From positions 1-32,766 of the forward strand of contig DQPL01000111.1 in the NCBI GenBank assembly GCA_015664885.1: a stretch of 32,766 bases of DNA, in the 5' to 3' direction. The notes beneath the pieces are model-generated. The model had not been told where the DNA came from. It searched no databases and saw nothing but the letters and a program-made list of their open reading frames with translations. The stretch comes from Gemmatimonadota bacterium (GTDB lineage: Bacteria > Gemmatimonadota > Gemmatimonadetes > Longimicrobiales > Gaopeijiaceae). This document shows positions 770 to 13,523 of this stretch, piece after piece. Positions within the stretch are counted from its first letter, which is position 1. Every line of letters starts with the position of its first letter. Made by a program: the position numbers and the translations under genes.

Positions 770-1873
770 CTAGCCGAACGACGCCTCCCGCGTCGTGAGG
801 CCGTGGATGCGGTCGAGATCGAGCTCGACGCCCAGCCCGACGCCGCTCGGTACACGCATGACTCCGTCTTCGACCTCGAACTCCGGCGTGACGATGTCCT
901 GCTCCCAATAGCGCTGGCTCGCCGAGATATCCCCCGGAAGACTGAAACCGGGTAGTGAGGCCAATGCCACGTTATACGCCCTCCCGACGCCGGATTCGAG
1001 CATGCCGCCGCACCAGACAGGCATGTCGCGATCTCGCGCCGTGTCGTGCAGTCTTCGGCTGACGCCGAAGCCTCCCACCCGACCGGGCTTGATGTTCACG
1101 ATTTGGCAGCTTCCCAGCTCGAACGCGAGCGCCAGATCGCCCTCGGACTTGATCGACTCGTCGAGGCAGACCGGCGTGCTAAGCTGCTCTTGCAGACGTG
1201 CATGGTCGAGAAAGTCATCGTAGGAGAACGGCTGCTCGATCATCATCAGATCGAGCGCATCCAGCTCCTTTAGTCGGTCCACGTCGTCGAGCGTATAGGC
1301 CGAATTCGCGTCGGCCATGAACGCGACGTCCGGGAAGCGCTCGCGTAGACCCGCAAGCATCTCGATGTCGCGGCCCGGTTTGATCTTGATCTTTACTCGG
1401 GCATAGCCGTCGTCGAGGTAGCCGCTGACGCTCTCGTGCAACTCTTCGTCCGTAGCCTTGAGCCCGATGCTCACGCCGACCGGCACGACGTCGCGATCAC
1501 CGCCCAGCTTCTGGGAGAGCGAGACACCCTCGGCTCGCGCCGCGAGATCCCAGCCCGCCATCTCTACGGCGGCCTTCGCCATGTTGTGGCCGCGCACCCA
1601 GCGGACGGGAGCCAGGATGTCCTCCGGCCCTTCGGCATCCCGCCCGACGATGCCTGGAAGTATGAATTCCGTGAGTACGTGCCACGCGGTGTTGGTGAAC
1701 TCGTAGGAGTAGGCCGGGTCCTCGCCCACCACACATTCGCTCCATCCCTCGAGTCCTTCGGAGTACAGCGTCAGCAGGAGAATCCGGCGATCCTGCATGC
1801 CACCGCTGCTGATCTCGAAGTACTCCTTCAGGCGCAGCGGAATCTGCCGCAGAACGGCACGTTCGATCCTCAT
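770..1873 (-). CDS. N-succinylamino acid racemase / o-succinylbenzoate synthase family enzyme
   Basis: A 367-aa enolase-superfamily enzyme, normal length for the NSAR/OSBS family. The catalytic KxK pair is K161 and K163 (VKIKIKPG). The metal ligands are D187 (ADAN), E212 (IEQP) and D237 (LDES), and the second acid/base lysine is K261 (NIKPGR). VWCGGMLESG and LPGDISAS are family signatures. Members racemise N-succinyl amino acids, make o-succinylbenzoate for menaquinone, or do both. No other men gene lies in the window, while a COG3375-type GNAT and an M20 hydrolase sit upstream in the same string. This favours the D-to-L amino acid racemase role (inference). Its ATG overlaps the stop of the FAD gene by 4 bases (ATGA), which fixes the start. 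It uses TAG as its own stop, so amber codons terminate normally in this genome. Confidence 0.88.
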   Translation of the reverse strand: MRIERAVLRQIPLRLKEYFEISSGGMQDRRILLLTLYSEGLEGWSECVVGEDPAYSYEFTNTAWHVLTEFILPGIVGRDAEGPEDILAPVRWVRGHNMAKAAVEMAGWDLAARAEGVSLSQKLGGDRDVVPVGVSIGLKATDEELHESVSGYLDDGYARVKIKIKPGRDIEMLAGLRERFPDVAFMADANSAYTLDDVDRLKELDALDLMMIEQPFSYDDFLDHARLQEQLSTPVCLDESIKSEGDLALAFELGSCQIVNIKPGRVGGFGVSRRLHDTARDRDMPVWCGGMLESGVGRAYNVALASLPGFSLPGDISASQRYWEQDIVTPEFEVEDGVMRVPSGVGLGVELDLDRIHGLTTREASFG

Positions 1874-3108
1874 TGAGTCTCTCCCACTAGGGCGGGCATG
1901 ACAGGCAAGAGCGGAAAGACCTCGTCCACCTGCTGCCAGCCGACACGCATCAGGTAGGTCGAGTTCCGACCGTAGGACTTCTCGCCCAGGATGAAGAAAC
2001 CCGGCTCGGGGTTTCTGAGGGTATCCGATCCGTGACTGGTCTGTGCGAGACAGTCCACCGCCGAAGATGCCAGCAAGGCGGCAGCGAGCTTCATGGGGCC
2101 CGATGTGGCCCAGCACTCGTGCACCTGCAGCTGCCGGTACAGCGTGTGGTCTCCCACTGAGCCCGTCAGCGCGATGATGCGATCGACCACGAGCCTTTCC
2201 ATCGTGCCGTCCGGTGCGGAGCGCAGCGTCACTTCGATTCCGTCGGAGCGTCGCAGCAGGGTCTCGACGGAACGTCCGAGGCGCACGACGACTCCCTCCT
2301 GCTGGGTGGCGCCGCGTCCCGCCGAAAGCATGGCCCGGGCGTGTTCCGCCAGCGCGGCACGCTGCGGCAATGGATCATCATCGATGGCCTTGAACGTCGG
2401 ACGCTCACTTCGGATCGTCTACGCGACCGCGGTGTCAGGGTGTCGAGAGCAAAGCTTCGACAAGGCTCGGGCGGCGGTCTGACCGGAGTGGCCCTCACCC
2501 ACCAGCAGGACTCTCTGCCCTGCCCAGCCCGCTTTGTCCGCGGCGACGTCCGGCAGATGGCGAACGATCGAGTCTGCTACAGACCGTTCGCCTGGGGCGC
2601 GAATTCCGCGGCGGCCCAGAGCGTTAGGGTTGTGGTAGGTACCGGTGCAATCGAGAACTACGTCCGCGAACACGATCCGCTCGTCGCCCGCCTGCTCGAT
2701 CAGGATGCGAAAGGGCAGCTCCGAGCGCTGCGCGGTGCCGATCTCGTCGCTCTTCAGCAGCCCGTCACGAGCGATCTCGAGCACGCGTGTTCCACACCGA
2801 ATCCGTGGGGCGATGTCGGCGAGCCCCGCGATCGGCTGCAGCAGGTCACGCACCAGCTCCACGCCCGTCGGACAGTCGTCGTTGTCGGGCACCGACTGTC
2901 CTGCGGCTGCGAGCCGCGCTCTAGCCCTCGCAGACGCGTTCATCGACCACGGCGTGAAGAGACTCACGTGCCCCCACGACCCCACGTTGCCGGCAGGCCC
3001 GCTCGCCATCTCCAAAACCGTGAAATCGAGCCCCGCCTGGGCTGCGGCCAACGAGACCTCCAGACCCGTGGGTCCGCTCCCCAGAATCGCAATTCGTGTA
3101 CGACTCAC
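1870..3108 (-). pseudogene. FAD/NAD(P)-dependent oxidoreductase interrupted by an in-frame amber codon
   Basis: A two-dinucleotide-fold flavoprotein of 412 codons. The N-terminal FAD site is ILGSGPTGLEVSLAAAQAG (residues about 7-25). A second GxGxSG fold, LLVGEGHSGQTAARAL, lies near residue 210, as in FMO-like or pyridine nucleotide oxidoreductases. The reading frame is interrupted once, by TAG at 2421-2419; both flanking parts are in the same frame and both look like real protein. The position reads TAVA-stop-TIRSERP, where a Trp codon (TGG) would need only one base change. The GTG start overlaps the GNAT stop as GTGA, and the 3' end overlaps the racemase start as ATGA. The substrate is unknown; an amino- or imino-acid related oxidation would suit the context, but this is a guess. 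Without the amber it would be a normal full-length gene. Confidence 0.8.
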
Positions 3109-3953
3109 GCATCCTCCCCGCGCACGAGCAGGTAGTCGGAGGTAGTCCCCGCACGAAGGAGTTCGCGCACCTCGTAGCCTTCGTTCAAATAGTGCGTGAA
3201 GACCGCCCGAGTGGCGTTCCGCCACTGGACAGCTACGTCCATCGAGCGACGCATGATCTCGGCGATGTCCGCCGGAATCGAAACGAATAGCTGGTCGTTC
3301 CGGTTCCCGAGGTCGGGGGTGCCTGGGTGAAGGAGCCCCTCCACTTCATCAGCGTCCAACACTCGCTGAGCGTCGGGCAACGCGCCGTGACGCGGTGCAC
3401 ACAGCTCGCCGGCAAGGCGGGCGACAACTCGCTCGCTAGTCATCAACCAGTGCGCGAGGAAGCGGTCGGTTCCCACACCCAGGTGTAGCGGCGAGTCGGT
3501 ATCGCCGTACATGTCGCGCTCATACTCGCGGGCCACGATGCCCAGCTTGCTGAAGTTCAGGTAAGCGTTGCGCGATTGCAGCGGGTCGAACGTCCAGTGC
3601 ATGGTCTCGACGCCACGTTCCAAGAGCTGTTCGCGCTGGTAAGCCTTCAAGCGGGTCCCGAGCCCGGCGTCGCGCACTTCGGTGCGCACCGCGAGCATGT
3701 CGGACCAGTGCACGAGCCGGCCGTCCCGGGGACCGGTCATGCCGAACACGAAACCGGCCAGGCGTTGGTCCGCGTCGTAGGCGCCAGCGCAGACGCCGCC
3801 CAGGATTTGAGAAACCTTCAGAATTGCGAGAGGCACTCGCTCGCTGAACCCCGCTCCCCAAGTCTCGTCCTGGAGCTCCACACAAGCCTGATATTGCTCG
3901 ATCGTGGTGAGCGGTCGGATTTCGAAATCGGTCGAGCCGACAAGCGAGCTCAT
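3105..3953 (-). CDS. GNAT-family N-acyltransferase (COG3375-like), candidate D-amino acid N-succinyltransferase
   Basis: About 282 aa, with a GNAT core in the N-terminal half (FEIRPLTTIEQY... and the acyl-CoA region RDAGLGTRLKAYQREQLLERG), then FDPLQSRNAYLNFSKLG, typical of the large COG3375 acyltransferases. Proteins of this kind are encoded beside N-succinylamino acid racemases and, in Geobacillus, succinylate D-amino acids from succinyl-CoA. That substrate is inferred here from the neighbours. ATG at 3953 is preferred over the TTG two codons upstream. It lies 25 bases after the M20 stop, the only real gap in the glcD-to-racemase string. The 3' end overlaps the FAD gene (GTGA). Confidence 0.82.
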   Translation of the reverse strand: MSSLVGSTDFEIRPLTTIEQYQACVELQDETWGAGFSERVPLAILKVSQILGGVCAGAYDADQRLAGFVFGMTGPRDGRLVHWSDMLAVRTEVRDAGLGTRLKAYQREQLLERGVETMHWTFDPLQSRNAYLNFSKLGIVAREYERDMYGDTDSPLHLGVGTDRFLAHWLMTSERVVARLAGELCAPRHGALPDAQRVLDADEVEGLLHPGTPDLGNRNDQLFVSIPADIAEIMRRSMDVAVQWRNATRAVFTHYLNEGYEVRELLRAGTTSDYLLVRGEDA

Positions 3954-3978
3954 TTCCAAGGCCCTGTCCTACCGGTCA

Positions 3979-5148
3979 CTAGCCCGACTCCACCGGACTC
4001 ATGAGCAGTTCCGCCACCAGCGCTGCGCGGTCGACCAAGCTCTCGATCTCGACGTGCTCGTGGTTCGCGTGGGCGCCGTCCCCGCGGGGACCGAGGCCGT
4101 CGAGCGTCGCGGTATACAGGCTGGTCGTATTCCCGTCCGAGCCGCCGCCCGATATGTCTTCCGTCAGGTCCATGCCCAGGCGGCCTCCCGCTTCTGCGGC
4201 TGCCTGCCAGAGTAGCCGATTTCGGGCAGTTCGCTCGAGCGGCGGTATCTGGATACCGCCTTCGATCTCTAGTGACGTGCCAGGAGTGAGGGCCCTCATG
4301 GCATGGATGGTCTCTGCGATGGCCTCGCCATCAGAGGCGGAAAGGATGCGCACGTCGACTTCGGCCTCGGCTTCTGCAGCGATCACGTTCACTCGCGAGC
4401 CACCTCGAACGACGCCGACGTTCACAGTTACTCCGCGCTCGAGATCAGTGATTGCGTGGAGTCGTTGCACGACGTGCATCAGCTCGTGAATCGCCGATGC
4501 CCCTCCGGTCGGGTCGAGCCCCGAGTGCGCGGCTTTGCCATGGACCCTCACGACGAAGCGCCCGACGCCCTTGCGTGCCGTCTTGAGGTGCCCGACCAGG
4601 CCCAGCGCCGGCTCGAGCACGAACGCGCGCGCAACGTGCTTGGCAATCAGACGAACGTACCGCGTCGATTCGGGGCTTCCGGTCTCCTCGTCGGAGTTGA
4701 TGAACCACACCGGCGTTGCGGGCGGCTGATGACCGAGCTCGCGCAGTGCACGAAGCGCGAAGATGCCCTGCACAATGCCGGCCTTCATGTCGAACGTGCC
4801 GGGCCCGCGCACGTGGCCGTTCTCGACGACGACCGGCATCGTCTCCAGCGTACCGAGCGGCCAAACCGTGTCTGAGTGCCCGATCAACAGCTGTGCGGGC
4901 TTGCCCCGCTCACGGTGTTCAGGCACCGCGAAAAGGTGCCCACCCGTCTCCCGGCCGGGCACGTGCCGCACCCCGAAGCCAAGCTCGCAGAGGGCGTCCG
5001 ATAGCTGCGACTGCACCGCCGCCTGCGAGGCCACTACATCGGTCGGCGACTCTTTCTCAACTAGCGAGACCAACATCTCCACCATGGCGTCGCGTTGTCC
5101 GGCCAGGTACTCGAGGATCGACTGCGCTCGAGCGCGCTCTTCACTCAT
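3979..5148 (-). CDS. M20-family metallopeptidase (CPG2-like), candidate N-succinyl-L-amino acid hydrolase
   Basis: 389 aa, usual length for M20 zinc hydrolases. Visible metal and catalytic residues are H91 and D93 (GHSDTVW), D120 (GTFDMKAG), the catalytic Glu pair E154/E155 (SDEETGS), E179 (VLEPALG) and a C-terminal His in DGAHANHEHV. The dimerisation domain lies between (GKAAHSGLDPTGGASAI). M20 enzymes hydrolyse N-acyl amino acids or C-terminal residues. Next to an N-succinylamino acid racemase and a GNAT, the likely job is removing succinate from N-succinyl-L-amino acids, making the D-to-L conversion irreversible (inference). The ATG at 5148 overlaps the glcF stop as ATGA, which selects this start over the longer upstream open frame. 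Confidence 0.88.
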   Translation of the reverse strand: MSEERARAQSILEYLAGQRDAMVEMLVSLVEKESPTDVVASQAAVQSQLSDALCELGFGVRHVPGRETGGHLFAVPEHRERGKPAQLLIGHSDTVWPLGTLETMPVVVENGHVRGPGTFDMKAGIVQGIFALRALRELGHQPPATPVWFINSDEETGSPESTRYVRLIAKHVARAFVLEPALGLVGHLKTARKGVGRFVVRVHGKAAHSGLDPTGGASAIHELMHVVQRLHAITDLERGVTVNVGVVRGGSRVNVIAAEAEAEVDVRILSASDGEAIAETIHAMRALTPGTSLEIEGGIQIPPLERTARNRLLWQAAAEAGGRLGMDLTEDISGGGSDGNTTSLYTATLDGLGPRGDGAHANHEHVEIESLVDRAALVAELLMSPVESG

Positions 5149-6512
5149 GCATCGCTGCCTCTTTGGTAGTAACCGGCCCGCCGATAGCTCTCGTCCAGCA
5201 GCTCGACCGGGTGTAACACGCCTTCTAGAGCCCCCTCCAGGCGCAGCCCCGCCCCGATCTGCATCATGCAGCCCGGGTTGGGGGTTACCACCGCGTCCGC
5301 TGCGCAGGCGCGTACAGCCGCCACCTTGTCCCGTCCGATCTCTCCGCCCAACTCCGGGTGCGTGATGCCGTAGATGCCTGCGCCGCCGCAGCACTCATCC
5401 GCCTTCCCGACGATGCGAACCTCGGTGCCCGGAATAGCGGCGAGCACCGCGAGCGGTGGCTGCTCGACGCGCTGGGCGTGCAGCAGGTGGCAGGGGTGAT
5501 CGTACGCTACCGTGCAGATCACTTCCGCTCCACCCAATGGCCCCGCGGCGGAGAGCAGTTCGGTGACGTCCTTCACCTTCGCGGCAAGTGCCCGCGCGCG
5601 CTCAGACATCGCAGAATCGTTCTCCAATAGCACGCCATAGTCCTTCATGGCGGCGCCGCACCCAGCGGTATTCACCGCGATGGCATCGGCTTCGACGGAC
5701 TCGAACGCGGCAATGTTCACACGAGCGAGGGTCCGCGCCTGTTCGAGATCCCCTCCGTGTGCGTGCAGCGCACCGCAGCAGTCCTGACCGCTGACCGAGA
5801 CCACTTCGTAGCCGTTGGCCTCGAGGGTGCGAACGGTGGCGCGGTTCAGGCGCGTGAAGAGTCCCTCCTGCACGCATCCGATCAAGACCGCGACCCGTCC
5901 ACGCGAGCCCGCCGCAACACGGTGGGACGGCGCGGCAGTGGAGTCGCCCACGCCGGTAGAGTCGGCTGAGCCGGCCTTCGCAAGGCCCAAGGTGCGTAGG
6001 CGGGTCCACCCAGCAGTTGAAGCGAGCATCGCGAGCGCGAGTTTCGCGGTCTTGAAGGGTCCCACAGCCGGAATCAGCATAGTGCCGAGCGACGCGAAGC
6101 CGAGGCCCCTGATCGAGCGACTCTGCACGAAGAAGAGCTTTCGTCGTAGTGAGGACGAGAAGACCCAGAGCAAAGCACGCGTTAGGAATCCCGAGGGACG
6201 GTGCTCAGCGACGGTCTCGCGGGCCAGCTCGAGCAGCGTGCCATACTCCACCCCGGAGGGACACACCGGCTCACACGCCCGACACCCGAGGCATCGATCG
6301 ATGTGCGTGCCGAACGCTTCAGAGCCGGGGTCGAGCCGTCCTTCGACAACGGCCCGCATGAGGTGCAGGCGACCTCGTGGAGAATCTGCCTCGTCGCCAA
6401 GGCGGTTGTACGTGGGGCACGCCGGCAGACAAAACCCGCAGTGCACGCACGGCAGCAAGCGCTCGCGCTGCTTCTCCAGTGCCTCGGAGAGCGTCGACAA
6501 CGTGTCGCTCAC
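5145..6512 (-). CDS. glcF: Glycolate/D-lactate oxidase iron-sulfur subunit GlcF
   Basis: 455 aa with two N-terminal 4Fe-4S clusters: C22, C25, C28, C32 (CVHCGFCLPAC) and C74, C77, C80, C84 (CLGCRACEPVC). Two CCG domains follow, marked by GQDCCGALHAHGG and ADECCGGAGIYG. This is the architecture of GlcF and related heterodisulfide-reductase-like subunits. It passes electrons from the GlcD/GlcE flavoproteins to the quinone pool at the membrane. GTG start at 6512 overlaps the glcE stop (GTGA), and its stop overlaps the M20 start (ATGA). The order glcD-glcE-glcF is the classical one. Confidence 0.93.
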   Translation of the reverse strand: MSDTLSTLSEALEKQRERLLPCVHCGFCLPACPTYNRLGDEADSPRGRLHLMRAVVEGRLDPGSEAFGTHIDRCLGCRACEPVCPSGVEYGTLLELARETVAEHRPSGFLTRALLWVFSSSLRRKLFFVQSRSIRGLGFASLGTMLIPAVGPFKTAKLALAMLASTAGWTRLRTLGLAKAGSADSTGVGDSTAAPSHRVAAGSRGRVAVLIGCVQEGLFTRLNRATVRTLEANGYEVVSVSGQDCCGALHAHGGDLEQARTLARVNIAAFESVEADAIAVNTAGCGAAMKDYGVLLENDSAMSERARALAAKVKDVTELLSAAGPLGGAEVICTVAYDHPCHLLHAQRVEQPPLAVLAAIPGTEVRIVGKADECCGGAGIYGITHPELGGEIGRDKVAAVRACAADAVVTPNPGCMMQIGAGLRLEGALEGVLHPVELLDESYRRAGYYQRGSDA

Positions 6513-7735
6513 AGCAGTACCCCGCTCGGATCGAAGATCCGCTTCACGCCCTCGCCGATCTCATGGGCGTCCGGCGAGAGTGGGGTAGAGAGAGCCGCAG
6601 GACTCGCATCGATCGGGCAACGATGCACAGCGACGGTACCGCCCAACGCTTCTACCCCGGCGCACATCTCCAGTACGGCATCGCTGTAACCAGCGCCGCT
6701 GAACGCGACGCGGGCACAGCCTTCGGCGACGTCCGCCACGACTACGCAGTCCACGCCCCGGAGCGCGCCTTGTATCGAGTCGAGCAATGCACCCAGCTGC
6801 GAAGGCAGCGTACTGGCGTACAGCAACACCTCAGCGTCGGCGCCCGCATCCCGCGTGGCAGCGAGCAACGCCTCCGCCTCGGTCCCCTCTTTCGCGGCGA
6901 AGGAGACCCCTGCGTGCGCCTCGAGCATGCGCTGGTCCGCATCGACTGTTTCGTCGGCGCCATGCAGGCGCACGAGGAAGCTCGCGGCGCCGGTCGAAAG
7001 AGAGAGCACGATCGAAGCAGGAAGCGTCGGTGCGGTCGCGACCGCCCGAGCAGTAGGCACTAGCGAAGCGAGGTCCGCGGCCTCGAGCACGAGCACCCTG
7101 TCGAGTGTTGGCACCGGGAAGAGGCGCACCGTGACCGCGGTAATGACCGCGAGACGACCACGGCTGCCCACCATCGGCTTGATCAGATCAAAGCCCGCGA
7201 CATTCTTCACGACTCGACCACCGAGTCGCAGCGCGCGGCCGTCACCGCAAACGACCGTCATTCCGAGCACGTGATTGCGCACGTGTCCGTAGCCTGCCCA
7301 CAAGGGTCCGGTCACCCCGGCGGCTGCGAGTCCACCCAACGTGCGCTTTGCTGCGTCCATGGGGTCGAACGGAAGCCACTGGCGGTGCTCGCCCGTCATG
7401 CCGCCGAGCTCCGCGAGGCCGGTTCCGGCCTTGGCCGTGAGCGTGAGGTCCGCAGGCTCGTAAATTTCGATTCCCGTCATTCGCGCGGTGGAGAGCGCGA
7501 CGTAGGGACGTTCGGCCCGTCGGTCCCCAACGTGCGCGCCCGTGCCGACCGGGAGCACCGCGCTCGAGGTAGCGCGTGCCCACTCCAGAACCTCTACGAC
7601 CTCTTGGACCGAGCCGGGGGACACATATGCATCCGGTTCCCGACCCAGCGCGAGGCGGGCCGAGCCACCCGACGCAGGTTCGAGTGCCTCGGCGGACACC
7701 ACGTCGGACAAAGGGGTAGCGCTGCCCAGAGTCAT
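6509..7735 (-). CDS. glcE: Glycolate oxidase FAD-binding subunit GlcE
   Basis: 408 aa FAD-linked oxidase subunit. The PCMH-type FAD domain is visible from SPGSVQEVVEVLEWA, PVGTGAHVGDR, KAGTGLAELGG, through VTGPLWAGYGHVRNHVLGM to GGRVVKNVAGFDL, then IKPMVGSRGRLAVITAVTVRLFP. GlcE is the shorter FAD partner of GlcD in the membrane-associated glycolate dehydrogenase. ATG at 7735 is chosen because it overlaps the glcD stop as ATGA; the open frame runs further upstream only as a shadow within glcD. Its stop overlaps the glcF GTG. Confidence 0.92.
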   Translation of the reverse strand: MTLGSATPLSDVVSAEALEPASGGSARLALGREPDAYVSPGSVQEVVEVLEWARATSSAVLPVGTGAHVGDRRAERPYVALSTARMTGIEIYEPADLTLTAKAGTGLAELGGMTGEHRQWLPFDPMDAAKRTLGGLAAAGVTGPLWAGYGHVRNHVLGMTVVCGDGRALRLGGRVVKNVAGFDLIKPMVGSRGRLAVITAVTVRLFPVPTLDRVLVLEAADLASLVPTARAVATAPTLPASIVLSLSTGAASFLVRLHGADETVDADQRMLEAHAGVSFAAKEGTEAEALLAATRDAGADAEVLLYASTLPSQLGALLDSIQGALRGVDCVVVADVAEGCARVAFSGAGYSDAVLEMCAGVEALGGTVAVHRCPIDASPAALSTPLSPDAHEIGEGVKRIFDPSGVLL

Positions 7736-9195
7736 GAAGTCATCCCAGCCGGTGACTCGCTGCCGGGCGCCGCACGACTCGGAAGCACCTTGCCCGGGTT
7801 GAAGAGCCCATCTGGATCGAAGAGCTCCTTCACGGAACGAAGCATCTCCAGTTCCGTCTCGTTGTGCACGAGTGGCATGTAGTCGCGCTTGTCGATGCCA
7901 ACGCCGTGTTCGCCGGTAATCGTGCCACCCACCTCGACGCACAGCTTCATGATTTCCTTGGATGCGTGCTCCACGCGCTCGAGCTCTGATGCGTTCTGCC
8001 GATCGAAGAGCAGGTTGGGATGCAGATTGCCGTCTCCAGCGTGAAAGACGTTGGCGATCTTGATGTCGTAGCTCTCGCCGATCTGCGCGATGCGCACGAG
8101 CACCTCCGGAAGCTTGGTGCGCGGCACGGTCGCGTCCTGAACCAGCAGATCTGGCGCGATGCGGCCCATGGCTCCGAACGCTTTCTTGCGGGCCGTCCAA
8201 AGCGCTGCCCGGTGCTCGGGCTCGGTGGCCCTCTGCACCTCGCGGGCACCCTCGGCGAGGCAGCACTTCTCCGCCCTGTCCGCGTCCGCGTCGAGGCCAG
8301 CTTCGGTCCCGTCGAACTCCACGACCAACGCGGCGCCCGCGTCGACGGGGTAGCCAGCGGCAAAGACGCTCGCCTCCAGTGCGCGGATCGTGGCTTGGTC
8401 CACGATCTCGATCGCGGCGGGCATGAGACCCGATGCCATGATCGCGGTCACCGCACGCCCCGCGTCCTCCATGGTCTCGAAGATGCCGAGCAAGGTGCGG
8501 ACGCCCTGGGCTAAGGGCAGCAGACGCACTTCTATCTCGGTAGCGATCCCGAAGCAGCCCTCGGAACCGACGAAAAGCCCGACTAGATCAAGTGACGCGT
8601 GGCGAGCTCCACCGGCGCCCCCGAGCTGAACGACCCGACCTCCGGCCAGTACCACGGTGAGGCCCGTGACGTAGCGGGACGTGACGCCATACTTGAGACA
8701 GTGTGGTCCACCGGAGTTCTCGGCCACGTTGCCACCCAAGGTGCACGTGCTCTGCGACGATGGATCGGGGGCGTAGTACAAGCCGTGAGGCCTGGTCGCT
8801 TCCGTGAGATGCGCGTTGACCACCCCGGGCTGGAGTCGCGCAAGCCGGTTCTCCGGATCGATCTCCAAGATCCGGTTCATGCGTGCCATGCCAACGACTA
8901 CGCCGTTCTCGGTCGCGAGTGCGCCGCCGGACAGTCCCGTGCCCGCACCACGGGGAACGACCTCGATGCCCTCGGCATGTAGAATCTCGACGACACGGGC
9001 CACCTCGTCGGTCGAGGCCGGCAGCACCACCGCCCGGGGCGTGACCCGATACGCCGTAAGACCATCGGATTCGTATACGAGTAGGCGGTCCGGGTCGGTG
9101 ATCACGTGCGTCTCACCGACGATGCCGGACAGCCGCTTCACGATCTTGGGGGGCACGGGTAACACGGGGGACCCGGGGGTTGGCGGCTGGCTCAT
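7732..9195 (-). CDS. glcD: FAD-linked glycolate/D-lactate oxidase subunit GlcD
   Basis: 487 aa, full length for GlcD. The FAD-binding PCMH motifs are PRGAGTGLSGGAL, LQPGVVNAHLTEAT, YAPDPSSQSTCTLGGNVAENSGGPHCLKYG and GSEGCFGIATEIEVRLLP. The C-terminal FAD-oxidase domain ends in HAGDGNLHPNLL, TGEHGVGIDKRDYM and LFDPDGLFNPGK. It oxidises glycolate or D-2-hydroxyacids such as D-lactate. The exact substrate cannot be read from sequence. The ATG at 9195 lies 45 bases after the MBL-fold gene, and the stop overlaps glcE (ATGA). Confidence 0.93.
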   Translation of the reverse strand: MSQPPTPGSPVLPVPPKIVKRLSGIVGETHVITDPDRLLVYESDGLTAYRVTPRAVVLPASTDEVARVVEILHAEGIEVVPRGAGTGLSGGALATENGVVVGMARMNRILEIDPENRLARLQPGVVNAHLTEATRPHGLYYAPDPSSQSTCTLGGNVAENSGGPHCLKYGVTSRYVTGLTVVLAGGRVVQLGGAGGARHASLDLVGLFVGSEGCFGIATEIEVRLLPLAQGVRTLLGIFETMEDAGRAVTAIMASGLMPAAIEIVDQATIRALEASVFAAGYPVDAGAALVVEFDGTEAGLDADADRAEKCCLAEGAREVQRATEPEHRAALWTARKKAFGAMGRIAPDLLVQDATVPRTKLPEVLVRIAQIGESYDIKIANVFHAGDGNLHPNLLFDRQNASELERVEHASKEIMKLCVEVGGTITGEHGVGIDKRDYMPLVHNETELEMLRSVKELFDPDGLFNPGKVLPSRAAPGSESPAGMTS

Positions 9196-9240: not shown

Positions 9241-9918
9241 TCAGGTCTGATCGCGGCCCCTCACGTACTCCATAAGAGCCGCCAAACTGAGCCTGGCGGG
9301 CTCCTCCATGCCTTTGGGCAGTGACCCCCCATAGACGATCTCGAACAACTGCTCCGGAGTCGCGTCCTCATGTCCGATCAACGCGTGCTCGACCTGCCGG
9401 ACCCTTATTCGTCGGTGTCTGGCGAAGCGGTCGAGCACCTTGGCGACGTTCTCCAACGGCGGCCCATGAGCAGGATACGCGACGGAGATGTCGAGCTCCC
9501 GCAGCCGTTCGATCGACTCGAAGTAGTCCGCGACACACCCAGGGTATTCGGCGACCCACGTGGTATCACCCCGTCCCAGAAGCATGTCCCCCGCAAACAG
9601 CGCACGCCGCTCGGGCCAGTAAAAGCACAAGTGATTCGAGGTGTGACCGGGCGTGTGAACCGCCACGAGTTGCCCCTCGTCGGTCTCGACCGCATCGCCA
9701 TCGACCAGCAGGTGGCCGACGTGCTCGACCCCCTCGGGACCCCACACCGCGGCACCGATCGCATCCGCCAACTCGCGCGTCGCTCCGGCATGGTCCCTGT
9801 GCCCGTGCGTCAGCACGATCATTCGCTCGGACGCGTCGCGCACCGCCGAAACCAAAGCCCGGACGTGGTCTGCCACGTCCGGGCCCGGGTCGATCACTGC
9901 AACCTTGTCCTTCCCCAC
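9241..9918 (-). CDS. MBL-fold metallo-hydrolase (LACTB2/glyoxalase II-like); true N-terminus extends upstream without a normal start codon
   Basis: Metallo-beta-lactamase fold hydrolase with metal motif THGHRDHAG, a further His in HTPGHTSNHL, Asp in LFAGDMLLG and His in YPAHGPP. A winged C-terminal part follows, as in LACTB2-like enzymes. The listed GTG at 9918 is the first ATG/GTG/TTG in frame, but the first beta strand is encoded upstream: in frame from 9990 come YLIAGNPSAFTLDGTRTFLV, the usual N-terminus of this family. An AGGAG at 10003-9999 stands 8 bases before an in-frame ACG at 9990, where the family start would be expected. The start may thus have been lost by ATG-to-ACG change, or ACG/CTG may be used. 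It lies between the GAF gene and glcD on the same strand. Confidence 0.8.
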   Translation of the reverse strand: MGKDKVAVIDPGPDVADHVRALVSAVRDASERMIVLTHGHRDHAGATRELADAIGAAVWGPEGVEHVGHLLVDGDAVETDEGQLVAVHTPGHTSNHLCFYWPERRALFAGDMLLGRGDTTWVAEYPGCVADYFESIERLRELDISVAYPAHGPPLENVAKVLDRFARHRRIRVRQVEHALIGHEDATPEQLFEIVYGGSLPKGMEEPARLSLAALMEYVRGRDQT

Positions 9919-10001: not shown

Positions 10002-10475
10002 CTACCGACGCTCCGCGGCGAGCTGCTCCGCGAGCTTGTCCGCAATGCTGATGAGCGCCATCTCGTCTTCCTCGGTGAACGCGGCCTCGTCGTCCGAATC
10101 GACATCGATCTGTCCGAAGATCTCTTCACCCGCTCGGATCAGAATTACCAGTTCAGACCGAGTATCGGGCGAACACACGAGGTAGTTCTCCTCGGCGCTC
10201 ACGTCGGCAATGTTGAGGTTCGTGCGCTCGGCGACCGCGCGCCCACAAACACCCGTGCCCACGGGAATCTTCGCGTGGTCCGTGCCGGGACCCATGTAGT
10301 TGTGAAGCCACAGCTCCTGCTCAGCCTCGTTGAGCAAATACACACCAACCCAGTTGAAGCGGTCATCGGCCTCGTCGATCGAGCGCACTGCTTTGCGCAG
10401 CAGCGCATCCGAGAGATGACCCTCGTCTCGCATCTCCTGTAGGGCCAGCACCACTTCTCCACTATCCAAAGCCAT
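10002..10475 (-). CDS. GAF-domain protein, probable free methionine-(R)-sulfoxide reductase
   Basis: 157 aa, a single GAF domain of the size of bacterial fRMsr (YebR/MsrC). Family landmarks are FNWVGVYLL, PVGTGVCGRAVAE, and a Cys-Ser-Glu region (YLVCSPDTRSELV) followed by GQIDVDS. The cysteines in GVCG and LVCS match the resolving and catalytic positions of fRMsr as I recall them. The protein would reduce free methionine-R-sulfoxide in the cytoplasm; a redox- or ligand-sensing GAF protein is the alternative. ATG at 10475. It is the first gene of the minus-strand string that runs to 770, so the string's promoter should lie in 10476-10629. Confidence 0.8.
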   Translation of the reverse strand: MALDSGEVVLALQEMRDEGHLSDALLRKAVRSIDEADDRFNWVGVYLLNEAEQELWLHNYMGPGTDHAKIPVGTGVCGRAVAERTNLNIADVSAEENYLVCSPDTRSELVILIRAGEEIFGQIDVDSDDEAAFTEEDEMALISIADKLAEQLAAERR

Positions 10476-10629: not shown

Positions 10630-11697
10630 TCAGCGCGGCGTGAAGTCGGTTTCCGGCGTCAGTCGACGGATGAACGCCGCGATGAGGCGCGCCGAGTTGA
10701 AGAGATCTTCAATGCTGATGATCTCGTTCGGTGAATGCATGTAGCGGTTCGGGATCGAGACCAGGCCGGTGGGCACGCCTGCGCGGGTGAGGAAGATCCC
10801 GTCCGCGTCGGTGCGCGTCGCTCTGGGCGACGCCTGGATCGTGTAAGGGAGCCCTTCTTCCTCGGCTACCTCAGCCAGCATCTCGAAGACGCCGTCGTGG
10901 GCAGCGGAGCCGCGGCTGAGCACGGGACCCCCACCGAGCTGGTGGTCTCCTAGCTCCTTCTTTTCCACGTCCGGCACGTCGGTGCTGAATGTGACGTCGA
11001 CCACGATGGCGACGTCGGGCTCGAGAGCATAAGCACTGGACATCGCGCCACCACCCGTGTACCCGATTTCCTCCTGCACGGTGGCCACCGCGGTCACACA
11101 CGCAGCGGGCGGATCGCCGGCAAGCATGCGGATCGCCTCCAGCACGACGAACGCGCCAACGCGGTCATCGATGGCGCGACTCGCGATTCTGTCTCCCGCC
11201 AGGCGCACCATGCCCTGGGACACGACCATGGGGTCACCGACTCGGATGCCCAGTTGGCCGACTTCGTCCTTGGAAGATGCGCCCACGTCGACCCACAGCT
11301 TCTTGGTCTCCGAAGCCTTCGTGCGGTCCTCGCGGTCCATGAGGTGGATCGCTTTCTTGCCGATCACGCCGACGACGTCTCCATCCCTGCTCAAGATCGT
11401 GACACGCTGACCTACCAGAACCTGTGGGTCCCACCCGCCAATCGCCGCGATGTACACGAAGCCATCATCGTCGATGTGGGTGATCTGCAGGCCTATTTCA
11501 TCGATGTGTCCCGCGAGCATGACTCTGGGACTTCCGGATGGATTCACCACTGCGAACGAATTGCCCGTAACGTCGGTTTCCACGGTGCCGGCGAAGGTCT
11601 CGGCCTGCTCACGCCAAACACGGGCCGCGCGAACTTCGAAGCCGGAAGGCCCCGCGGCGTCGAGAAGCCGCTCGAGAAAGGAGATGTCGTGACTCAT
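10630..11697 (-). CDS. M42-family metallo-aminopeptidase (FrvX/PepA-like)
   Basis: 355 aa, the normal M42 length. Metal and catalytic residues are visible in order: AGHIDEIGL (His/Asp), RAIDDRVGAF (Asp), VQEEIGYTGGG (catalytic Glu pair), VVDVTFSTD (Asp) and a C-terminal His in RYMHSPNE. M42 enzymes are dodecameric cytosolic aminopeptidases that trim short peptides. ATG at 11697 begins MSHDISFLERLLDAAGPSG, the usual family start; the upstream open frame has no family resemblance. It is divergent from the Tat amidase. Confidence 0.92.
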   Translation of the reverse strand: MSHDISFLERLLDAAGPSGFEVRAARVWREQAETFAGTVETDVTGNSFAVVNPSGSPRVMLAGHIDEIGLQITHIDDDGFVYIAAIGGWDPQVLVGQRVTILSRDGDVVGVIGKKAIHLMDREDRTKASETKKLWVDVGASSKDEVGQLGIRVGDPMVVSQGMVRLAGDRIASRAIDDRVGAFVVLEAIRMLAGDPPAACVTAVATVQEEIGYTGGGAMSSAYALEPDVAIVVDVTFSTDVPDVEKKELGDHQLGGGPVLSRGSAAHDGVFEMLAEVAEEEGLPYTIQASPRATRTDADGIFLTRAGVPTGLVSIPNRYMHSPNEIISIEDLFNSARLIAAFIRRLTPETDFTPR

Positions 11698-11843
11698 GGG
11701 ATCCAGACGAAAGGAGTTCCAGGGGGGGATGCAACCTACGCGGAAAGCACCAAAGCAGCCACACGTTGTGAGTGCGTCTGACGCTTGCTCGCACCCGCCC
11801 GAATGTCCAAGGTTGAGCGCTCTGCGACCATGAGGAGACGACA

Positions 11844-13523
11844 ATGCACGAGAAGCGAGGCCGCCACGCGATGACATTGGGCCGCCGTGAGTTCGTGAAG
11901 CTCGGGGGACTTGGCGTCGCCGCTGCGGTCACGGCGGGGACCGCCGCTTGCGCGCCTGACACCGGCGCCGTTGGTGGCTCCGCCGACGATGCACCGTGGT
12001 GGACGACGGAGACCTTCGAGTTGGAGGAGGCCACCTTAGCGGGCCTTCTGAACGACATGGCGTCTGGCCGGCGCTCGGCGGTCGAGATCACGCAGCTCTA
12101 TCTAGACCGCATCGCCGCAGTGGACCGAGAGGGTCCGAAGCTTCGCTCGATCATCGAGACGAATCCCGATGCGCTCGACATCGCGCGGCAGCTCGACGAG
12201 GAACGAGCAGGCGGCAACCTACGTGGTCCGCTGCATGGCATCCCGATCGTCGTGAAGGACAACATCGACACCGCGGACGGCATGACGACCACCGCTGGCT
12301 CCTACGCGCTCGAGGGGCACATCGCGGCCCAGGACAGCCACGTCGCGGCCCAGTTGCGGGCGGCCGGCGCCATCATTCTGGCCAAGGCCAACCTCTCCGA
12401 GTGGGCAAACTTCCGCTCAACGGAGTCGACGTCGGGGTGGAGCGGTCGTGGCGGTCAGTGCGGGAACGCTTTCGCAGTCGACCGAAACCCTTGCGGTTCG
12501 TCCGCAGGGTCGGCCGCGGCTACGTCAGCAAATCTGTGCGCCGGATCGATCGGTACTGAGACCAATGGCTCGATCGTGTGCCCATGCTCGATCAATGGCG
12601 TTGTCGGGCTGAAGCCCACCGTCGGCCTCGTCGGCCGATCCGGCATCATCCCCATCTCCCACACCCAGGACACTGCGGGCCCGATGGTGCGCACGGTGGC
12701 CGACGCGGCGACGATGCTGAGCGCGTTGGCAGGGCCCGACCCGCGCGATGCCCTGAGCCAAGCGGCCGCCGGGTTCGCCGGCACGGACTACACGTCATTC
12801 CTCGACGCAGACGCCCTGCGGGGAGCGCGCATCGGCGTCGAACGGAGCTACTTCGGGCAGGACAGGCACCGCGACGACCTGATGGAGCAAGCGATCGTCG
12901 ACATGGCGGCGGCGGGCGCGAGCATCATCGACCCCACCACTCTCGACAACCGCCGCCAGTACAACGCCCCCGCGTACCAGTTGATGCTCTATGAATTCAA
13001 GGCGGACTTGCGAGCGTACTTCTCGACCGTCTCGCCGGAGCTCGGCATGCGCTCGCTTGAGGACCTGATCGCGTTCAATGAGGCAAACGCCGACCGGGAG
13101 ATGCCCTATTTCGGCCAGGAGATTCTCATTGCCGCCAACGAGATGGGACCGCTTATGGACCCGGAATATCTGCGCTTCAAGGAGACCGCCCGACGATTAT
13201 CCCAAGACGAAGGCATCGACCGGCTCATGGAGGAGCACCGACTGGACGCGATCGTAGCGCCGACCACTCGTGCCGCCTGGAAGACGGACCTGATCAATGG
13301 CGGAATGTCGAGCCTGGGTTCATCCAGCCCCGCGGCGATCTCGGGATACCCAAGCATCACGGTGCCCATGGGGTCCGTACGCGGGCTCCCGATCGGGATG
13401 CTCTTCTTCGGCAGTGCCTGGAGCGAGGGCCGGCTGATCCAGCTCGCGTATTCCTACGAGCAGGCGACCAGACACAGAAGGCCCGCGAGGATGTTGCCGA
13501 CGCTGGACCTGCGGAACGCGTAG
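11844..13523 (+). CDS. Amidase signature family protein with Tat lipoprotein signal
   Basis: 559 aa. The N-terminus carries a twin-arginine signal (GRREFVKLGG) ending in a lipobox with Cys at about residue 36 (AGTAAC), so a Tat-exported lipoprotein is likely. The amidase Ser-cisSer-Lys triad is visible as K138 (IVVKDNID), S219 (NPCGSSAGS) and S243 (TETNGSIVCP), followed by KPTVGLVGRSGIIPIS and DTAGPMVRTV. It would hydrolyse an amide outside the cytoplasm; the substrate is unknown. A GAGGAG lies about 7 bases before the ATG at 11844. An alternative ATG nine codons later would still keep the Tat motif. Confidence 0.92.
   Translation: MHEKRGRHAMTLGRREFVKLGGLGVAAAVTAGTAACAPDTGAVGGSADDAPWWTTETFELEEATLAGLLNDMASGRRSAVEITQLYLDRIAAVDREGPKLRSIIETNPDALDIARQLDEERAGGNLRGPLHGIPIVVKDNIDTADGMTTTAGSYALEGHIAAQDSHVAAQLRAAGAIILAKANLSEWANFRSTESTSGWSGRGGQCGNAFAVDRNPCGSSAGSAAATSANLCAGSIGTETNGSIVCPCSINGVVGLKPTVGLVGRSGIIPISHTQDTAGPMVRTVADAATMLSALAGPDPRDALSQAAAGFAGTDYTSFLDADALRGARIGVERSYFGQDRHRDDLMEQAIVDMAAAGASIIDPTTLDNRRQYNAPAYQLMLYEFKADLRAYFSTVSPELGMRSLEDLIAFNEANADREMPYFGQEILIAANEMGPLMDPEYLRFKETARRLSQDEGIDRLMEEHRLDAIVAPTTRAAWKTDLINGGMSSLGSSSPAAISGYPSITVPMGSVRGLPIGMLFFGSAWSEGRLIQLAYSYEQATRHRRPARMLPTLDLRNA

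Follow-up and report, generated by a model that had tools for sequence, protein, structure and literature searches.

A gene cluster on the minus strand of contig DQPL01000111.1 (C69) of a Gemmatimonadota bacterium joins the three genes of a probable D- to L-amino acid conversion set to the genes of a GlcDEF-like oxidase, and this arrangement is conserved in related genomes. The window analyzed here is the whole contig (32,766 bases, 64% GC), one of the 136 that make up the 3.96 Mb genome of the host (G000). The reading that we favor, with a probability of about two in three, is that an acyltransferase of the GNAT family, an N-succinylamino acid racemase (NSAR) and an M20-family hydrolase catalyze the known sequence of succinylation, racemization and desuccinylation, that the racemase doubles as o-succinylbenzoate synthase (OSBS, MenC), and that the set shares an operon with an oxidase of D-2-hydroxyacids. 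This oxidase would be of the GlcDEF type and would transfer electrons from glycolate and/or D-lactate to quinone. The GNAT would N-acylate a D-amino acid, its most likely donor being succinyl-CoA; the racemase would interconvert the N-acyl-D and N-acyl-L forms by a two-lysine 1,1-proton transfer, and the M20 enzyme would hydrolyze the N-acyl-L form, so that D-amino acids would in net terms become L-amino acids. This racemase would most likely also be the OSBS of the cell. In this way the host, a soil-and-water bacterium, probably has a gene set that turns D-amino acids into usable L-amino acids. Its racemase is of a kind that annotation usually assigns to vitamin K synthesis, and it probably serves in both roles. 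The steps are those of the pathway that Sakai et al. (2006; doi 10.1021/bi060230b) name in their title, as cited in PMC8762209.

Gene order and its conservation

The initial annotation described seven genes in the order glcD-glcE-glcF-M20-GNAT-FAD-NSAR, and the positions of the open reading frames (ORFs) on the minus strand bear this out: glcD (7732..9195), glcE (6509..7735), glcF (5145..6512), M20 (3979..5148), GNAT (3105..3953), a flavin adenine dinucleotide (FAD)/NAD(P)-binding oxidoreductase gene (1870..3108) and the racemase gene (770..1873). Its account of the junctions is equally exact, with five four-base overlaps (ATGA at 7732-7735, GTGA at 6509-6512, ATGA at 5145-5148, GTGA at 3105-3108 and ATGA at 1870-1873) and a gap of 25 bases between M20 and GNAT (3954-3978). 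What does not hold is that the genes run without a break, as an in-frame TAG (2421-2419) splits the FAD gene into two ORFs of the same frame. The same-strand run also reaches further upstream of glcD, with MBL, GAF and M42 genes. Four-base overlaps in a single genome are common among bacteria, and several of those found in the host are gaps in the relatives. The evidence that stands above chance is the conserved order, not the overlaps.

We examined this order in the neighborhoods of 45 genomes, where some of the misses are contig ends, and found it kept, which answers the objection that no relative might share it. The recurring block is M42-GAF-MBL-glcD-glcE-glcF-(flavin reductase)-M20-(DUF1611-like)-GNAT-(FAD)-NSAR, the genes in brackets being variable. 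GNAT and NSAR were no more than 2.6 kb apart on the same strand in 27 genomes, M20 was close to GNAT in 27, glcF to M20 in 30 and glcF to NSAR in 26, while the MBL gene adjoined glcD in 18.

Stronger evidence than the order within the family is the recurrence of the GNAT-NSAR pair across phyla. Of 80 named loci, 64 have both genes together, among them loci in metagenome-assembled genomes (MAGs) of Acidobacteria, KSB1, Ignavibacteria and Hydrogenedentes, and in Actinomycetota they are accompanied by M20. A plasmid of Streptomyces sp. SYP-A7193 (L193) has the order serine hydrolase-M20-GNAT-'menC', with four-base overlaps between the last three, and all four kinds of gene are also present on an Arthrobacter plasmid. 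In Deinococcus, ABC-transporter genes adjoin the plasmid-borne menC and GNAT. The Streptomyces cassette is annotated as menaquinone synthesis, yet it resembles a D-amino acid cassette. As a separate observation, in one locus of Ignavibacteriae (L136:7052-8870) genes similar to those of 2,4-diaminopentanoate dehydrogenase and cysteate/aspartate racemase precede GNAT-NSAR, which hints independently at a metabolism of D-amino acids.

Nearly all loci in which glcDEF joins the cassette carry the label Gemmatimonadota. Two others, labelled as Gammaproteobacteria, have glcF-GNAT-FAD-NSAR in a layout near-identical to that of the Gemmatimonadota loci and are probably mislabelled. No description of glcDEF joined to a D- to L-amino acid cassette was found in the openly accessible literature, subscription journals being outside its coverage. 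The cassette is of a known kind, and its linkage to glcDEF is a new, conserved setting. Judged by sequence, the oxidase is GlcDEF-like, with glycolate and/or D-lactate as its predicted substrate: the glcD product is an FAD-linked oxidase subunit (PF02913/PF01565), that of glcE an FAD-binding subunit (PF01565), and that of glcF an iron-sulfur subunit with two 4Fe-4S motifs and two CCG domains. The presence of glcDEF in Gemmatimonadota has been read as glycolate use (PMC10581226). Malate synthase is present in the host genome; it was not detected in several of the relatives that bear glcDEF (e.g., G006, G009, G014 and G016). Given this and the adjacent glyoxalase-II-like gene, D-lactate appears as likely a substrate as glycolate. 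A shared use of D-enantiomers, which would tie glcDEF functionally to D-amino acids, would be a reasonable explanation of the linkage.

Some of the data weigh against the reading that we favor. GlcD, GlcE and GlcF all remain below the NCBIfam equivalog cut-offs (496 bits against 567.9 with TIGR00387, 150 against 284 with PRK11282 GlcE, and 281 against 333, respectively). Synteny extends beyond the run, with homologues of the pilB/gspE fragment at 41-760 in 18 of the fetched loci and some of the upstream genes in about 10. Because the flanking genes are partly syntenic too, conserved order inside the family is a weaker argument, supporting but not decisive, and we rejected it as sufficient proof of function. 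Besides, the cassette is not always complete: M20-NSAR occurs without GNAT in G028, G030, G032, G033 and G034, and in G032 and G033 MenD is not over its cut-off either.

The same synteny favors the alternative that the D- to L-amino acid cassette is real but glcDEF, together with MBL, GAF and M42, is merely a stable neighbor with no shared function. The cassettes outside Gemmatimonadota, which lack glcDEF, point the same way, as does G005, where the cassette does not adjoin glcDEF. Against it speak the same-strand packing with four-base overlaps in the host genome and the proximity of glcF to M20, which is kept in another family (G041, G045 and G047) whose NSAR either has been displaced or went undetected. 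We regard this alternative as a serious contender, somewhat short of an even chance.

The racemase and its partner enzymes

The racemase is closest to the N-acylamino acid racemases of Thermus, Deinococcus and Amycolatopsis (best match 2zc8, from Thermus, at an expectation value E of 1e-105). The features of the NSAR/OSBS type within the enolase superfamily are present, namely the KxK motif (K161/K163), the second lysine (K262) and the metal ligands D188, E213 and D238, and all of them, as well as R265, were invariant in an alignment of 18 sequences. When a close relative of the protein was aligned to 1sja and 2zc8 the catalytic residues were shared. R265 aligns with a residue that is Arg in 1sja and Gln in 7s8w, an NSAR/OSBS variant; we take this Arg to be the Amycolatopsis R266 linked to racemase specificity.

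The GNAT had no family match at E<0.001 and received no name from Pfam, NCBIfam or PDB sequences. Its AlphaFold model (predicted local distance difference test, pLDDT, 92.9) matched 735 PDB structures at E<=0.001, the best of them GNATs, so that the model points to a confident GNAT fold belonging to no curated family. The assignment also draws on an alignment of 26 sequences. Named relatives of the GNAT are mostly Gemmatimonadota MAGs (Gemmatimonadales/Longimicrobiales), and the protein is 31% identical to a Deinococcus radiodurans GNAT encoded near the racemase gene of that genome. We propose it as a D-amino acid N-succinyltransferase. For the M20 peptidase/deacylase (PF01546, PF07687), proposed as an N-succinyl-L-amino acid hydrolase, the closest solved structure was carboxypeptidase G2 (E 1e-27). 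The three genes of the Geobacillus-type set (GNAT, NSAR and M20) occur together at the locus, and this association is conserved in the relatives. The initial annotation had taken them for the three steps of that route, and the racemase residues, the cross-phylum GNAT-NSAR pairs and the M20 genes of Actinomycetota lend support to it. The proposed chemistry thus appears well supported, with succinyl-CoA as the presumed donor and with the substrates and the direction as predicted from the sequences.

The group transferred might instead be acetyl or some other acyl group, by analogy with the DgcN-DgcA route of D-glutamate. Some support comes from the promiscuity of NSARs towards N-acyl groups (review PMC7431475) and from a gene found in relatives between M20 and GNAT (L044:9265-10284 and seven further loci), whose product is a P-loop protein of 340 amino acids weakly related to DUF1611 (PF07755 matched weakly in all 8, with no convincing match among PDB sequences). 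Its fold matches P-loop proteins generally: 2obn, a DUF1611 chain, reached a Z score of 14.3, tied with CTP synthase and dethiobiotin synthetase, and TM0796 (2g0t) was also present. DgcN is, we assume, a DUF1611 protein, but on account of this tie we do not claim a DgcN identity for the gene, which may encode a second acyl-transfer or ATP-dependent step. In the relatives with this insert, a flavin-reductase-like gene often lies between glcF and M20. The racemase itself argues against an acyl group other than succinyl, since it scored 98 bits with the DgcA model, far under the cut-off of 400, and is closest to NSARs and N-acylamino acid racemases. We consider such a group unlikely.

The racemase is over the cut-off of the curated MenC model (TIGR01928, 348 bits against 200.65). 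In the host, the menaquinone genes lie on another contig (C117) in the run menF-menD-menB-menA-menE, with menF, menD, menB and menA over their cut-offs and a menE-like gene whose best match is below its own; there is no menC among them. Across 59 genomes, none had a MenC of the gammaproteobacterial type (TIGR01927) over the cut-off. Other PF13378 matches in the host were not menC, and its other enolase-superfamily genes code for a sugar-acid-dehydratase-like protein, enolase itself and a protein that has a twin-arginine-like signal but matches no NCBIfam model. Because the classical menaquinone genes are present and no other menC candidate was found in the genome, the racemase is probably the OSBS of the host as well.

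The case foreseen in the initial annotation, a racemase acting only as OSBS with the menaquinone genes elsewhere, is realized in part: the genes do lie elsewhere, and without a menC, but the exclusive role fails. In seven genomes of a sister family, MqnC of the futalosine route is over cut-off and MenD is not. NSAR is still present at >=49% identity in six of these, in three of them beside GNAT (G035, G045 and G047), so that the gene is not confined to genomes with the MenD route and OSBS activity alone cannot explain it. The reverse is seen in G037, which has MenD and no GNAT. Its homologue (L177:4883-6043), located behind M42-GAF-MBL, has diverged (TIGR01928 179 bits, below cut-off), with the second lysine K262 replaced by Arg and R265 by Leu, and is a probable dedicated OSBS. 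These three states of gene content agree with one promiscuous enzyme that would serve two pathways in the family of the host. A bolder version holds that the operon scavenges D-enantiomers, by oxidizing D-lactate or glycolate and by inverting amino acids from D to L, that the one enzyme is physiologically both NSAR and sole OSBS, and that quinone supply and D-enantiomer use, with an oxidase donating to quinone, hang on one gene; in the relatives this double burden would then have been resolved in both ways, either by losing the MenD route or by losing the residues of the racemase. We put it forward tentatively and doubt that it holds in full. At the other end, the view that the gene is only the OSBS of menaquinone synthesis, with GNAT and M20 as unrelated neighbors, draws on the TIGR01928 score and the menF, D, B, A and E set without a menC, but it is very improbable in the light of the genomes with MqnC and no MenD that keep the gene, the invariance of both lysines and the arginine, the adjacency of GNAT and NSAR across phyla and the M20-GNAT-NSAR order in Streptomyces.

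The case bears on a question of enzyme evolution, whether promiscuous NSAR/OSBS enzymes really perform a double service inside a single cell. Here, a single bacterial order offers a natural comparison between genomes with one gene for both, genomes that use the other route and keep the racemase (some with the acyltransferase), and one genome without the racemase residues and GNAT. Many of the genes called 'menC' that adjoin a GNAT probably encode amino acid racemases, a point of weight when estimating which organisms recycle D-amino acids in soil and water.

The interrupted FAD gene and the flanking genes

The TAG (2419..2421) is codon 230 of 412 in the FAD gene, whose product has a weak Pyr_redox_2 match. 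In all 17 relatives compared the codon is one for Trp; 16 of these frames end at 397-432 amino acids and the 17th reaches a contig edge. The ratio of nonsynonymous to synonymous substitution rates (dN/dS) against the sister genome was 0.218 before the stop and 0.195 after it. As both values are about equal, the stop must be recent or an assembly or sequencing error, and decay of the gene is rejected. So is a recoding of TAG, since M20 and NSAR themselves terminate in TAG. The dS of the gene against the sister genome (0.82) was above that of its neighbors (0.46-0.57), which would fit a separate history of this gene. An intact relative of the protein matched flavin monooxygenases only weakly (E 6e-4). 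Many loci of the relatives are without the gene, which indicates that it is dispensable; it is an accessory gene, broken in this assembly. A purine-rich GGGAGAGA is located a few bases 5' of the ATG of NSAR, and given this motif NSAR may start independently despite the upstream stop.

Upstream of glcD, on the same strand, the first neighbor codes for an MBL-fold hydrolase, glyoxalase-II-like (9241..9918; Lactamase_B 2.9e-19, TIGR03413 83.8 bits, below the cut-off of 200.8). It is followed by a GAF-domain protein (10002..10475), fRMsr-like by eye and a conserved neighbor in relatives, and by an M42-family aminopeptidase-like gene (10630..11877), the probable first gene of the run, with orthologues in the same place in most relatives. 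The latter is a mechanical ORF with its true start probably inside, and the family was named from the sequence without a profile scan. On the plus strand, convergent with NSAR, positions 41-760 encode the C-terminal part of a PilB/GspE-type ATPase, cut by the contig edge, and then zinc-ribbon motifs. A short piece of NSAR lies some 3.7 kb downstream of the NSAR gene in the sister genome (L039); it matches the last 47 residues at 62% identity and may be what is left of a duplication.

Comparison with known systems

The NSAR pathway of Geobacillus kaustophilus is reportedly encoded by an operon of GNAT, NSAR and an M20-type hydrolase. Common to both systems are the GNAT, an NSAR of the OSBS/NSAR subfamily and the M20-type hydrolase. 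The host set differs in lying behind glcDEF, with an FAD gene, in having as its racemase the only menC candidate of the genome, and in belonging to Gemmatimonadota. With the N-acylamino acid racemases of Amycolatopsis, Thermus and Deinococcus (PDB 1sja, 2zc8 and 1r0m) the host enzyme shares full-length homology, the lysine pair, the metal ligands and the KPxR motif. In D. radiodurans, however, racemase and GNAT are separated by a solute-binding gene, and the annotation shows no M20 in the vicinity. The DgcN-DgcA pathway of D-glutamate also consists of an acylation followed by racemization by an enolase-superfamily enzyme, a racemization described as irreversible (PMC12363236), and relatives of the host operon carry a DUF1611-like gene that recalls it. 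In contrast, the window has no such gene between M20 and GNAT, and its racemase is of the NSAR/OSBS type and not a DgcA. Finally, the oxidase shares with the GlcDEF of the E. coli type the subunits D, E and F in order, although in the host the three score below the equivalog cut-offs.

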